A stretch of 38,243 bases of DNA from a virus: positions 1-38,243 of IMG/VR virus record IMGVR_UViG_3300007960_000007; one strand, written 5' to 3'. This document shows positions 6,601 through 11,052 of this stretch, piece after piece. Both the position numbers and the translations under genes were made by a program. The notes under the pieces were generated by a model, which saw nothing but the letters and a program-made list of their open reading frames with translations, searched no databases and was not told the DNA's origin. Positions within the stretch are counted from its first letter, which is position 1. Each line of letters opens with the position of its first letter.

Positions 6601-6630
6601 TTTTTGCTTGGAATTGTAACAAACAACCTG

Positions 6631-6660
6631 AAACCCGCTCCTGCAGCGGGTTTTGTTTTA
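6631..6660 (+). terminator. Intrinsic terminator after the primase operon
   Basis: Stem CCCGCT (6634-6639) and AGCGGG (6645-6650) with a 5-nt loop, followed by TTTTGTTTT. It ends the rightward operon that starts at 3353. Confidence 0.85.
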
Positions 6661-6901: not shown

Positions 6902-6953
6902 AACAACAAGCAAACCCACGCCCAGCAAGGGTTGTAGAGTTTGCGAGTTAGTC
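6902..6953 (+). repeat. Composite direct repeat, copy 1
   Basis: Unit order: AACAAC, then AAACCCACGCCCAGCAA (6912-6928), a 12-nt variable spacer, then TTGCGAGT (6941-6948), followed closely by GTCGC. The 17-mer and the 8-mer recur perfectly in copy 2, 79 bp downstream and with the same internal spacing. Confidence 0.9.
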
Positions 6954-6980: not shown

Positions 6981-7030
6981 AACAACGCAGAAACCCACGC
7001 CCAGCAATGAATTAGGACGTTGCGAGTCGC
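6981..7030 (+). repeat. Composite direct repeat, copy 2
   Basis: AACAAC (6981-6986), AAACCCACGCCCAGCAA (6991-7007), 12-nt spacer, TTGCGAGTCGC (7020-7030). The conserved blocks keep exactly the spacing of copy 1 while the spacers differ, which suggests binding sites for one protein rather than a fresh duplication. Confidence 0.9.
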
Positions 7031-7069: not shown

Positions 7070-7098
7070 TTGACATTTCCTGGGTGGATGGCGATACT
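7070..7098 (+). promoter_or_regulatory. Promoter of the recombination operon
   Basis: -35 TTGACA (7070-7075, perfect), 17-bp spacer, -10 GATACT (7093-7098). The expected start near 7105 gives a leader of about 138 nt before the gene at 7243. That leader holds a strong hairpin. Confidence 0.65.
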
Positions 7099-7118
7099 GT
7101 CCTTGTTGCGTAGGAGTA

Positions 7119-7208
7119 GTGTCCGAACCGACTGCAAGCCAGAAGCCCAAGACAACGGATGAAGTATTTAACCCCCTGTCAGGTGCCGCGATCCGAGGCC
7201 AACACTAA
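7119..7208 (+). CDS. Candidate 29-residue leader peptide
   Basis: A GTG-started reading frame of 29 residues (begins MSEPTASQKPKTTDEVF, ends IRGQH) with AGGAG immediately upstream, although the 2-nt spacing is short. It spans the 5' arm of the hairpin, and its TAA ends one base before the 3' arm begins. An alternative frame, ATG 7159 to TGA 7212 (17 residues, MKYLTPCQ...), covers the same stem but lacks a good ribosome site. Either could act as a leader peptide that keeps the hairpin open. It may also be non-coding. Confidence 0.35.
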   Translation: MSEPTASQKPKTTDEVFNPLSGAAIRGQH

Positions 7209-7229
7209 CTGACAGGGGGTTTTACTTTT
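7170..7229 (+). terminator. Attenuator-like hairpin in the leader
   Basis: A perfect 13-bp inverted repeat, AACCCCCTGTCAG (7170-7182) with CTGACAGGGGGTT (7209-7221), has a 26-nt loop and is followed by TTTACTTTT. It lies between the promoter and the first gene of the operon. It can act as an intrinsic terminator or attenuator, or as the 3' end of a small RNA of about 120 nt. Confidence 0.6.
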
Positions 7230-7242
7230 GGAGATACAAGCC

Positions 7243-7590
7243 ATGGCAAAATTCAGTCGAGCGCAAGAGCAGATGATTGAGTTAATTCGCTCTGAGGCAA
7301 TCCCTACGCCAAAGACCAAGGAGTCGCTGGTTTCCATGCTTCTGGACTTCGCAGAATTGGGCGCTGGCAATCATGTCAAGCAGGCATCCGCCTTCGTAGT
7401 CAAGAGATCTCGTGGAGCGCCGCCAAAGCACCCATTCGCGGTCATGGAGGTCGGTGACGAAATTCACATCTACAAAAACAAAAAATACCTGCAGGCGTAC
7501 TGTCACGTTTATGGTCGTAGCTCTGGTAAAAAATTCAAAACCAGAACAAACGAGTGCAGCCGAACCCTGTACATCAAGAGGGTCGCATAA
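7243..7590 (+). CDS. DUF7303-like small phage protein
   Basis: 115 residues. The C-terminal part (about 60-113: HPFAVMEVGDEIHIY..., then a Lys-rich GRSSGKKFKTRTNE and a final beta strand TLYIKRV) resembles the small phage domain annotated as DUF7303, with the pattern F-x-x-M-x-x-G-D followed by G-K-K-F-x-T-R. The N-terminal half is helical. Function is unknown, though the basic C-terminus suggests nucleic-acid contact. It is the first full gene after the attenuator-like leader. I chose ATG 7243 (GGAG upstream) over a TTG at 7228. Confidence 0.65.
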   Translation: MAKFSRAQEQMIELIRSEAIPTPKTKESLVSMLLDFAELGAGNHVKQASAFVVKRSRGAPPKHPFAVMEVGDEIHIYKNKKYLQAYCHVYGRSSGKKFKTRTNECSRTLYIKRVA

Positions 7591-7591
7591 C

Positions 7592-8032
7592 ATGGAATCA
7601 AAACTACAAATCCTGCAAGAGAGCGAGCAGAAAGCGGCAGGCTTTATCGGCAGAGCAATAATCATCAGGCCAAATATGCCAACACCACAACAAGCCCAAT
7701 TCTCAAGGCTGGTAGCAACCAAGCTAATCAAGATGCCGAAAAACCCAGATCAAGTTGTTTCGCTCATGGAGCAGTATGGAGCGCTGGCCAACTCGACCGA
7801 CAACCTGACCGACAACCTGGCGCTTATCAAGGTCAGCATGATGACACGAATCGAGTCAGTCGAGGGGATTCTGTACGCAAGCACTCTGCGCGCAACTCTT
7901 GCCGCGCTTGTCAAGATTGACTGCATGGACAAACCACAAGACTGGTTCGAGCAATGCCTAGCAAGCCTAGTGGCTGACGGGCTGGTGGAAGTTTCGGAAG
8001 ATAACAAGCGAGTATGGAGAGTGAGCAAATGA
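7592..8032 (+). CDS. Hypothetical protein, C-terminal winged-helix-like
   Basis: 146 residues, start ATG 7592 one base after the previous stop. There is no recognised family. The middle contains two short tandem phrases (STDNLTDNL). The last 50 residues (LRATLAALVKIDCMDKPQDW, then LVADGLVEVSEDNKRVWRV) have the helix-helix-strand wing look of a small DNA-binding winged helix. Its stop overlaps the next ATG (ATGA), so the two are coupled. Likely part of the recombination or early-regulation set. Confidence 0.6.
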   Translation: MESKLQILQESEQKAAGFIGRAIIIRPNMPTPQQAQFSRLVATKLIKMPKNPDQVVSLMEQYGALANSTDNLTDNLALIKVSMMTRIESVEGILYASTLRATLAALVKIDCMDKPQDWFEQCLASLVADGLVEVSEDNKRVWRVSK

Positions 8033-9015
8033 GCAATTTACCAATCGAAATCAAAGAATCCGGCAACCTGCCTAACGTGTTTGAGGCTGCAAACCTTGAG
8101 GCGCTGTTCAAGCAGGTCGAAGAACAGGTCAAGGGTGAGATTTTTGACGTTGAGACACAGGAAGGCCGCGCCCACATCAAATCCGTGGCAGCCAAAATCT
8201 CAAGCAGCAAGACCGCCATTGACAAGCCAATCCGCGACTATCTGCGCGAGATTAAGGAGCTGCCAAAGATTATCGAGAAAAATGCCCGTGAGAGCATTGC
8301 CAGGTTCGATGCGCTGCGTGATGAAACGCTGGCACCGCTGGCGGCGGCGCAGGCCGAGCAAGACAAGTTACTTGAGTGGATGAATGGCATTCCGGTGTGG
8401 TGCATGAGCTGTCAGCAGTCTGAGCTGGCAAAGCAGGTTATCTCAGACCTCGAAGGCGTGCTGCTGGATTCGTTCTGGCCTGATCTGCGGAAAAAAGCCA
8501 AGACCGCGCATGAGGCCGCGCTGACCGTGGTAACAAACACGCTGAACAACCTGCTGGCAGCCGAGAAGCAGGCCGCAGAGCTGGAAGCGCTGCAAGCCGA
8601 GAAGGCGCGACTTGAGCAAGCTGCTCACGATGCGCGTGTTGCCAAGGAAGCCGAGGAGCGCGCCCGCGCAGAGCAGCAGCGCCAAATTGTGGAAGCGCAG
8701 CAGCGCGAGGAGCAAGCAAGGCGCGACAAGGAGGCGGCAGAAGCTCGCGCTATCGAAGCCGAGGCCAAGGCAAAGCGTGATGCTGAGCTGGCGGCAGAGC
8801 GCGCTGCACAGGCCGAGCGTGAGCGCATGGAAGCCGAAGAAGCCGAGGCAAAGCGACTGGCCGATGCCCGCGCCGCCGACAAGGAAAACCGCATCAAGAT
8901 TAACCGCGCCGCACTTGTTGCGCTTATCGCCGAAGGCTTGAGCGAGGACGATGCCAAGAAGGTCGTCACCGCGATTGCGAAAGGCCTAGTTCCAAACGTC
9001 AAGATATTTTACTGA
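8029..9015 (+). CDS. Coiled-coil recombination-associated protein (DUF1351-like)
   Basis: 328 residues. A helical N-terminal half (MSNLPIEIKESGNLPNVFEA...) carries a KSVAAKISSSKTAIDKPIRD block. It is followed by a very long Glu/Ala/Arg-rich coiled coil (about 185-290), then a short C-terminal domain (KINRAALVALIAEGLSEDDAK). The N-terminal pattern resembles DUF1351-type phage proteins, which sit upstream of RecT-like annealases, and that is also its position here. It probably acts as a structural or DNA-end-handling partner of the exonuclease and annealase genes downstream. ATG 8029 overlaps the previous stop, with GGAG upstream. Confidence 0.65.
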   Translation: MSNLPIEIKESGNLPNVFEAANLEALFKQVEEQVKGEIFDVETQEGRAHIKSVAAKISSSKTAIDKPIRDYLREIKELPKIIEKNARESIARFDALRDETLAPLAAAQAEQDKLLEWMNGIPVWCMSCQQSELAKQVISDLEGVLLDSFWPDLRKKAKTAHEAALTVVTNTLNNLLAAEKQAAELEALQAEKARLEQAAHDARVAKEAEERARAEQQRQIVEAQQREEQARRDKEAAEARAIEAEAKAKRDAELAAERAAQAERERMEAEEAEAKRLADARAADKENRIKINRAALVALIAEGLSEDDAKKVVTAIAKGLVPNVKIFY

Positions 9016-9023
9016 GGTGCGCC

Positions 9024-9263
9024 ATGGACAGAGTAGAATTTGTGGCGGCCTATGTCGCCAAACACTACCCAACCCACATCAACGACCCTGAACTGGTCAA
9101 GGAAGCTATCGAGAATGCCCCTGAATCGCTCTCAGATGCGTTATTTTACGAATTAGCTACCGAGGTAAGGCCGAAGCAGTTACAGGCGATTGTAGACGAT
9201 ATGGTTGATTCTAGGCTGGCATGGCTGGCTGGGCAGGAATGGGAGACTTTGAAATGCAAATAA
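9024..9263 (+). CDS. Small hypothetical protein
   Basis: 79 residues, acidic and helical (MDRVEFVAAYVAKHYPTHIN...). No signal peptide, membrane segment or known domain seen. It lies between the coiled-coil protein and a two-TM peptide, and its 3' end overlaps the next gene by 10 bp. GAGGTGCGCC precedes the ATG. Confidence 0.68.
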   Translation: MDRVEFVAAYVAKHYPTHINDPELVKEAIENAPESLSDALFYELATEVRPKQLQAIVDDMVDSRLAWLAGQEWETLKCK

Positions 9264-9433
9264 TCTACAACATAACACTGACCCTGTGGCTACTGGTTGC
9301 GGTTCTCAGGCTGGTTGATAACGTGGTATTTGATGATAACGCCTTCCCTTGGTTTTATCGCGTATCAGGCGCGGTAGTGCTGGCCGCATTGTGCTTTAGC
9401 GTGGCATCAGCGCTGGCATGGATATGGGGGTGA
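9254..9433 (+). CDS. Small two-TM membrane protein
   Basis: 59 residues with two hydrophobic segments (about 4-20 and 35-56) joined by a short acidic loop (NVVFDDNAFPWF). Start ATG 9254 has GGGAG 8 nt upstream; a longer version from 9221 would overlap the previous gene more. It has the shape of small phage inner-membrane proteins. Role unknown. Its position in the recombination operon is not informative. Confidence 0.6.
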   Translation: MQIIYNITLTLWLLVAVLRLVDNVVFDDNAFPWFYRVSGAVVLAALCFSVASALAWIWG

Positions 9434-9435
9434 TC

Positions 9436-10215
9436 ATGGCAACAATCACAACATCCCTAACAAACGCTGAATACCGCTCAGTTGCAGCGGTATCGAAATC
9501 AGACCTTGACCTGGTGGCGAAGTCGGCCGCGCTGCTGGAGTGGTCGAGGAATGCGCCGAGAGGCGAATGCAACGCAACCGAGATTATTGGAACCGCCACG
9601 CACTGCGCCACACTGGAGGCAGACAGGTTTGCCGTGGATTACGTCAAATCGCCTAAAATAGAGACGCGCAGTAACGCTGGCAAGGCCGCTGCCGCAGCTT
9701 TTGCCGAGTCTTGCAAAGACAAGATTGTGCTGAGCGCCGATGATTACGAAATGACTGAGGCCATGCGCGACAGCGTATTGGCACACCCAGTAGCGCGGGA
9801 GCTGCTGACCAGTGAAGGCCAGAGCGAAGCCTCGATATTTTTCGAGGTTAACGGCATCAAGTGCAAGTGCAGGCCAGACCGGATTGTGGCAAACCGTCAT
9901 ATTCTGGCTGACCTAAAAACCACGGACGACATCGACAAGTTTTATTGGTCGGTGCGTGACTATCGCTATCACGTTCAGGATGCGTCCTACTCGGAAGGGT
10001 ATTTCCAGCTGACCGGCGAGTGGCCAAGATTTATCTTTGTGGTTGTCGGCAAGAAGCGGGTATTTGGTCGGCATCCGGTTCGGGTGTTCGAGTTGTCGCA
10101 GGAATGGAAAGACCAAGGCCGCGCCGAGTTTATGCGAGATTTGGAGACGTACCGCGACTATCTGGAGTTTGGGTGCGGGTTGGAGGTTGAAACACTTGCA
10201 TTCCGCAATAAATAA
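9436..10215 (+). CDS. RecE-like PD-(D/E)XK exonuclease (DUF3799)
   Basis: 259 residues. The fold of the RecE/DUF3799 nucleases is visible: SKSDLD near the start (20-25), GTATHCATLE (52-61), an acidic residue at E131, then CKCRPDRIV (143-151) and LADLKTT (157-163), giving the D-xn-D-x-K catalytic set (D148, D159, K161). QDASYSEGYF (181-190) matches the later QxxxY motif. It would resect 5' strands at double-strand ends to load the annealase encoded next. ATG 9436 is preceded by GGGGGTGATC; two earlier ATGs lack a site. Confidence 0.85.
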   Translation: MATITTSLTNAEYRSVAAVSKSDLDLVAKSAALLEWSRNAPRGECNATEIIGTATHCATLEADRFAVDYVKSPKIETRSNAGKAAAAAFAESCKDKIVLSADDYEMTEAMRDSVLAHPVARELLTSEGQSEASIFFEVNGIKCKCRPDRIVANRHILADLKTTDDIDKFYWSVRDYRYHVQDASYSEGYFQLTGEWPRFIFVVVGKKRVFGRHPVRVFELSQEWKDQGRAEFMRDLETYRDYLEFGCGLEVETLAFRNK

Positions 10216-10254
10216 ATTTACTATTGAGTCAGGTTTTATAGGAGAGCAATCAAA

Positions 10255-11052
10255 ATGAGCAAGGCATTAACAATTATCGCCGAAAATACAGGCGCAAGCG
10301 TTGGCGAAATCACCGAGATTTTGCGTGGCATGATTGTGTCGGCAAAGAACCAGCACGGGGCAGCAGCTACAGATGCTGAGGTGTTCATTGCATCGTCAAT
10401 CTGCGCCAAGTACGACCTCAATCCGCTAATGAAAGAGGTGGCCATATTCACCACTGGCGGCAAGCTGCAGGTCACAATCCCAATTGATGGCTGGATTAAA
10501 ATACTCAACCGCAACCCAGATTTTGACGGCATCGAATACGAGTACGGCTACAAAGATGATGGCTCGATAAACTATGTCGAAGCCGTGATCCACATGAAAA
10601 ACCGCAAATACCCAACACGGGTGCGCGAGTTCATGGACGAGTGCGTTGCCATGGGTGGACCAACATGGAAGAAGTGTCCAGCCCGCATGCTCAGAAACAA
10701 GGCTACCGGACAGGGAACTCGCGTTGCGTGCGGCGTCACTGACGTTGTCGATGATGATGAGGCGTACCGCATCAAGAAGGCTGTTGGTGGCGAGCGTGAC
10801 ATTACCCCAACACCACAAGCCCCAGCCGTTGACCTTAAGGCGCTAAACGACCGCATGGCTCAGTTTGCGTCACTGGATGACCTTGACGCCGAGTGCAAGG
10901 CGATTGCAAACGAGCTGCGCGCATCTGGTCAGTTTGATTCCGTGAAAGGCGACCTGTCGCTGATGCGCCGTGAGCATACAGACCGGATTAATGCGCTTGA
11001 TGTGCTTGACGTTGATTTTGGCGAGGTGATTGATGGCGAGCAGGCCGAATAA
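10255..11052 (+). CDS. RecT/Bet-family single-strand annealing protein
   Basis: 265 residues. The core matches the RecT/Redbeta annealases: VFIASSICAKYDLNPLMKEV, then the substrate-loop segment VTIPIDGWIKILNRNPDFDG, and PARMLRNKATGQGTRVACG. It pairs complementary single strands produced by the exonuclease encoded upstream, a two-gene recombination system for genome repair, concatemer formation and gene exchange. The acidic C-terminus (LDVLDVDFGEVIDGEQAE) might contact SSB or the exonuclease. GGAGAGCAATC precedes the ATG. Confidence 0.9.
   Translation: MSKALTIIAENTGASVGEITEILRGMIVSAKNQHGAAATDAEVFIASSICAKYDLNPLMKEVAIFTTGGKLQVTIPIDGWIKILNRNPDFDGIEYEYGYKDDGSINYVEAVIHMKNRKYPTRVREFMDECVAMGGPTWKKCPARMLRNKATGQGTRVACGVTDVVDDDEAYRIKKAVGGERDITPTPQAPAVDLKALNDRMAQFASLDDLDAECKAIANELRASGQFDSVKGDLSLMRREHTDRINALDVLDVDFGEVIDGEQAE

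Follow-up and report, generated by a model that had tools for sequence, protein, structure and literature searches.

RNA-based phage immunity is known from a few cases, such as c4 of phage P1 and the CI RNA of satellite phage P4. The P1 c4 RNA carries a' and b' loops and is processed by RNase P, and changes of about four bases alter specificity between P1 and P7 (PMC5320573). The specificity loops of c4 are variable, and C4 RNAs are defined by three stem-loops, including a tetraloop hairpin (PMC5320573). The P4 CI RNA pairs with an upstream site, seqA, and a downstream site, seqC, which results in termination (PMC4825925). In the IsrK-anrP system, a short leader RNA acts on the antirepressor mRNA produced by readthrough of that leader (PMC4825925).

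The stretch of DNA analysed here (the window; 38,243 bases) is a tailed-phage record featuring terminase, portal, capsid, tail, primase, helicase, exonuclease VIII-like and Bet-like genes. Of the window ORFs examined, none could be recognised as an integrase or repressor. The initial annotation had described a promoter, a 138-nt leader and a perfect 13-bp hairpin upstream of the recombination operon, and all three were found in place (Table 1). Since 1.1 promoter-like sites are expected by chance in the region and one was found, the promoter consensus alone is little proof. The promoter is, however, preserved almost base for base in the sister phage L033. The leader and its flanks fold more stably than dinucleotide shuffles (z -2.5; 2/200 shuffles).

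The first gene of the operon encodes a modular protein, the N-terminal ~50 residues of which are common to the window and L033 (8167-8565), while the C-terminus is swapped. Its C-terminal half weakly matches PHROG 28399. In L033, the C-terminal domain of the first-gene product duplicates that of the primase encoded by the same phage and is 59% identical to the window primase. Two 47-nt direct repeats (6902-6948 and 6981-7027; 74% alike), sharing the core AAACCCACGCCCAGCAA, lie between the primase gene and the leader. The core is also present in L033, and the repeats are possibly origin or binding sites. A bidirectional terminator-like hairpin (6629-6655) is located directly past the primase gene.

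Table 1 Features of the leader region and the downstream operon in the window.
Feature	Position	Strand	Remarks
Sigma-70-type promoter, TTGACA-17-GATACT	7070-7098	+	-35 TTGACA 7070-7075, GATACT 7093-7098; near-identical in L033
Untranslated leader	7105-7242	+	putative start ~7 nt past the -10 box
Site a, TAGTGT	7117-7122	+	complementary to a'
Mini-ORF 1	7119-7208		GTG 7119 to TAA 7206-7208, 29 codons
Site b, CGGAT	7156-7160	+	complementary to b'
Mini-ORF 2	7159-7212		ATG 7159 to TGA 7210-7212
Long hairpin stem P4, 5' arm	7170-7182	+	AACCCCCTGTCAG; covaries in 8 elements
Inner hairpin P5	7185-7199	+	GCC 7185-7187 / GGC 7197-7199; from fold
Site b', ATCCG	7191-7195	+	in the P5 loop
Site a', ACACTA	7202-7207	+	bulge on the 3' side, flanked by P5 and the 3' arm of P4
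Stem P4, 3' arm	7209-7221	+	CTGACAGGGGGTT; covaries in 8 elements
U-rich tail, candidate intrinsic terminator tract	7222-7229	+	sequence past stem P4; TTTTACTTTT read from 7220
First operon gene (modular, 115 aa)	7243-7590	+	ATG 7243; GGAG at 7230-7233
Remainder of the operon	7592-11052	+	small protein, phrog_1376 protein, exonuclease VIII-like, Bet-like annealing protein
Exonuclease VIII-like gene	9418-10215	+	
Bet-like annealing protein gene	10255-11052	+	

Relatives of the leader were identified by several routes. A blastn search of phage records with the leader alone matched the hairpin (window 7149-7233) to the Edwardsiella phages MSW-3, PEi21 and PVN06 (E = 5e-7), and a pattern derived from these matches added the IMG/VR contig L007. 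L033 was reached via the adjacent primase gene (86% identity). Relatives of the downstream Rha gene led to three further IMG/VR contigs (L040, L054 and L157), to Pantoea phage PdC23, to ENT47670/ES2 and to L106, a partial variant featuring only the b:b' contact, loop to loop. The geometric descriptor is unspecific when used alone, as shuffles and the rest of the window score 29-31; we therefore kept only matches far above that score or in a homologous context. The Cronobacter phages ENT47670/ES2 probably carry a relative of the element; ENT47670 (score 31), retained because of its context, is the most doubtful of the full members. The hairpin recurs in other phages with a different stem sequence, which indicates more than chance.

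Outside the window and L033, the element mostly sits before Rha/KilAC antirepressor genes. The next gene encodes a Rha-type antirepressor in PEi21, L007, L040, L054, PdC23, ENT47670, L106 and L157, while the leader is followed by an unclassified protein of 115 residues in the window and by a related modular protein in L033. The MSW-3 leader (L002:2917-3090) is intact and 95% identical to that of PEi21, but an unrelated gene on the opposite strand replaces the PEi21 antirepressor gene, and no Rha relative was detectable in the MSW-3 stretch compared. PVN06 (L009:3080-4935) carries tandem full and fragmentary Rha/KilAC copies behind one leader. In the Vibrio phages L095, L099 and L103, a short ORF, annotated in L103 as a ribbon-helix-helix protein, is found upstream of the same antirepressor gene instead of the leader RNA.

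The exact hairpin pattern had no match in viral contigs, and nothing useful was matched in E. coli genomes or plasmids. Scanning 84,980 bacterial genomes with a pattern returned 21 matches, all of which were chance-like, lay inside unrelated sequence and were discarded. The element is absent next to the Ant-gene relatives inspected in Vibrio, Aeromonas, Yersinia, Proteus, Pseudomonas, Pasteurella and a number of further phages, and only one weak Rha-gene relative was found in the 274 gammaproteobacterial genomes drawn. No Rfam family was matched at gathering or relaxed thresholds, and a literature search retrieved no published description of this leader element.

Two complementarities, a:a' and b:b', had escaped the initial annotation. 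All full members have the same order of parts: site a, site b (often with a small local hairpin between the two) and the 5' arm of stem P4 are followed by P5 with b' in its loop, a' and the 3' arm of P4. A stretch of varying T-richness comes next and leads to a Shine-Dalgarno site and the start codon. The paired segments vary extensively among members (Table 2). The U-tract after stem P4 is good in L054 and PdC23 (T7) and in L106 (T5), fair in the window and L033, and weak in the Edwardsiella phages, L007, L040 and L157.

Table 2 Paired segments of the leader element.
Element	a:a'	b:b'
Window	TAGTGT:ACACTA	CGGAT:ATCCG
L033	TGGAATC:GATTCCA	TCAGCTA:TAGCTGA
PEi21	TGGAAC:GTTCCA	CGGATA:TATCCG
L040	TGGAAC:GTTCCA	CTACCA:TGGTAG
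L054	CTGGAAA:TTTCCAG	GCAGATTTT:AAAATCTGC
PdC23	GTGGAAC:GTTCCAC	GATCAGCGGCG:CGCCGCTGATC
ENT47670	TCGCAC:GTGCGA	CCCTAAG:CTTAGGG
L157	TCGACCC:GGGTCGA	CACAACA:TGTTGTG

In the window alone, the cis pairings are short (6+5 bp) and not unusual (122/2000 shuffles), and the case therefore rests on comparison. In 8/8 elements, the six a:a' and the five b:b' pairs are without exception Watson-Crick, each with one to four pair types, although pairing was itself used to find the sites of the more distant members and some ascertainment remains. Pairs are likewise standard throughout the eight elements at 9/10 inner positions of stem P4 and at all positions of P5, the stem of which reads GCC:GGC, GCT:AGC or GGC:GCC. 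Two tests are free of, or fair to, the choice of sites by pairing. When upstream parts were reassigned to loops among the eight elements, every cross-combination also being given its best match, only 4 of the 40320 permutations reached the observed sum. When the window and L033 were aligned base for base, 10/22 positions of a, a', b and b' had changed, compared with 17/138 elsewhere (3.7 times the change rate; Fisher p = 6e-4, or p = 0.011 for the transcribed leader only). Of the 11 pairs, 5 are doubly changed, all in a compensatory manner, and none is broken; the cross-pairing score between the two phages is 0 in both directions. These comparisons show that compensatory change has preserved the predicted a:a' and b:b' helices as well as both the long and the inner stem. 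On this comparative evidence, the leader preceding the recombination operon is a real, conserved regulatory RNA.

The a:a' and b:b' helices nest together but cross stem P4. When transcripts were cut before the 3' arm of P4, the fold containing both helices was the minimum-energy fold in L054 and PdC23 and lay within 2 kcal/mol of the minimum in the window, L033, PEi21 and L040; enforcing it in L007 and ENT47670 placed it 7-10 kcal/mol above the minimum. With the 3' arm present, the P4 fold was the stabler one in all except PdC23, and the cis pairings are absent from the full-length minimum-energy fold of the window. As modelled, the layout is that of an early-forming antiterminator and a later-forming terminator.

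The reading that we favour, with modest confidence, is that of a C4-like leader in which the cis a:a' and b:b' pairings compete with the terminator-like hairpin, and in which the released hairpin RNA acts on other copies. As polymerase leaves the leader, a:a' and b:b' would pair in cis while the 3' arm of the long stem has yet to be transcribed; by enclosing the 5' arm, they would hold off the hairpin and leave the operon on. If the cell already contained hairpin RNA, the b' loop and a' bulge of that RNA would cover a and b in the newly made transcript; the long hairpin would then form and transcription would stop, leaving the operon off. Release of short RNA at the hairpin would thereby supply a diffusible repressor, specific for phages with the same a and b. 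Recognition between molecules is suggested because a, a', b and b' change rapidly and coordinately between sisters and because the MSW-3 leader outlives the antirepressor gene, an arrangement that fits a role in trans. No other ordered a and b occur in the window, which leaves the leader itself, in the same or another phage genome, as the sole predicted target. Given the weak U-tracts of the Edwardsiella phages and of L007, L040 and L157, termination at stem P4 may not be general and may fail in some members. PVN06 has been described as lytic (PMC8465730); together with the window, where neither integrase nor repressor was recognised, this means that classical lysogenic immunity may not apply.

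The terminator-like shape is what an ordinary terminator or a stray, unregulated hairpin would show, but the two extra helices covary and the position before antirepressor genes is conserved, which makes this account most improbable. The initial annotation had proposed that ribosomes on two mini-ORFs control entry into the operon. Both frames exist as described and overlap the 5' arm in the window. Among relatives that keep the structure, however, frames start and stop at different places (before site b in L007 and L040, inside the 5' arm in L033 and PEi21), and L054 has no mini-ORF at the corresponding place. No mini-ORF, those of the window included, has a Shine-Dalgarno site at working distance. 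In L007, the stem is shorter by one base pair, an indel that disrupts the reading frame and leaves the pairing intact; for this reason, a protein-level coincidence (KTTD..F.P) seen in the GTG frame was dropped. Control by leader-peptide translation is therefore hardly credible. Of the conservation anticipated for stem and ORFs, that of the stem was borne out, as it recurs and covaries in relatives, and that of the ORFs, in position, length or frame, was not. The description "attenuator-like leader" agrees with the comparative evidence, as does the suggestion of a free small RNA, which comes close to the explanation favoured here.

Two other alternatives received more weight. A switch acting only in cis, i.e., a pseudoknot or alternative fold that answers a protein, a ligand or transcription speed and releases no diffusible RNA, is unlikely, if the less so of the two. 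One transcript can form all pairings, and in L054 and PdC23 the minimum-energy fold before the terminator arm is the cis one; however, the paired sites outpace the rest of the leader between close sisters, which suits a specificity code better, no long invariant core extends outside the helices across all eight elements, and the MSW-3 leader persists without an antirepressor gene. It is quite improbable that the element is a true C4 antisense RNA repressing translation of the downstream gene in trans, despite a site order matching a1-b1-c4 of P1 and the antirepressor gene downstream of most members. The covariance model of C4 (RF01695) gave no match at gathering score, while the P1 positive control reached 68.8 bits, and c4-a1b1 (RF03163) was not matched either. 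A second pair of sites, a2/b2, at the downstream ribosome-binding site was not seen beyond chance: two-block scores were within shuffles in 7/8 elements, L007 being marginal (16/500), and the same test on the P1 control returned a1 (TTGACAG) and b1 (GTTAGTG) upstream and a2/b2 downstream of c4.

The likeness to the P1/P7 C4 RNAs nevertheless extends to the a-b sites upstream of a long stem, to the location of b' within a hairpin loop and of a' within the 3' bulge of that stem, both complementary to a and b of the same transcript, to the antirepressor downstream in most members and to specificity segments that vary between relatives. In contrast, the fold consists of a long stem and one inner hairpin, and the tetraloop hairpin is missing. 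The element is also more compact (the hairpin lies 9 nt past b in the window, compared with ~60-70 nt in P1), often has a terminator-like tail, and has no icd gene in between. Because Rfam C4 and c4-a1b1 are unmatched, one stem-loop fewer is present and a2/b2 are not found, the element is not to be filed as C4. It probably works on the same principle.

The P4 CI RNA (as described in PMC4825925) resembles the element in being a leader-derived RNA complementary to an upstream leader site, with premature termination of a replication or recombination operon, as is proposed here. It differs in having one pairing segment instead of two separate ones and in the downstream seqC, which was not seen in the element, the hairpin of which is itself intrinsic-terminator-like in several members. 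Gifsy-1 IsrK-orf45-anrP likewise combines a short terminated leader RNA and a readthrough antirepressor mRNA from one promoter, and the short RNA acts in trans on its own long form, as the element may do by analogy. IsrK, however, activates translation via an upstream ORF; the element has no such ORF, and repression is proposed for it. The IsrK Rfam model did not match the element.

The fact that loops and upstream sites change together is suggestive of an RNA switch, possibly doubling as a diffusible immunity RNA, and not of a leader peptide. More tentatively, the aborted leader RNA could repress its own operon, with the two recognition segments as an evolving immunity code. The window and L033 could then be "heteroimmune" by RNA alone, and the code could serve recombination operons and antirepressor genes alike. 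If true, this would be a compact form of RNA immunity, absent from Rfam 15 and spread across several phage groups, in which target, antisense and probable terminator are contained within ~120 nt and specificity segments visibly swap between sister phages. The element would predict cross-regulation between the leaders named here.
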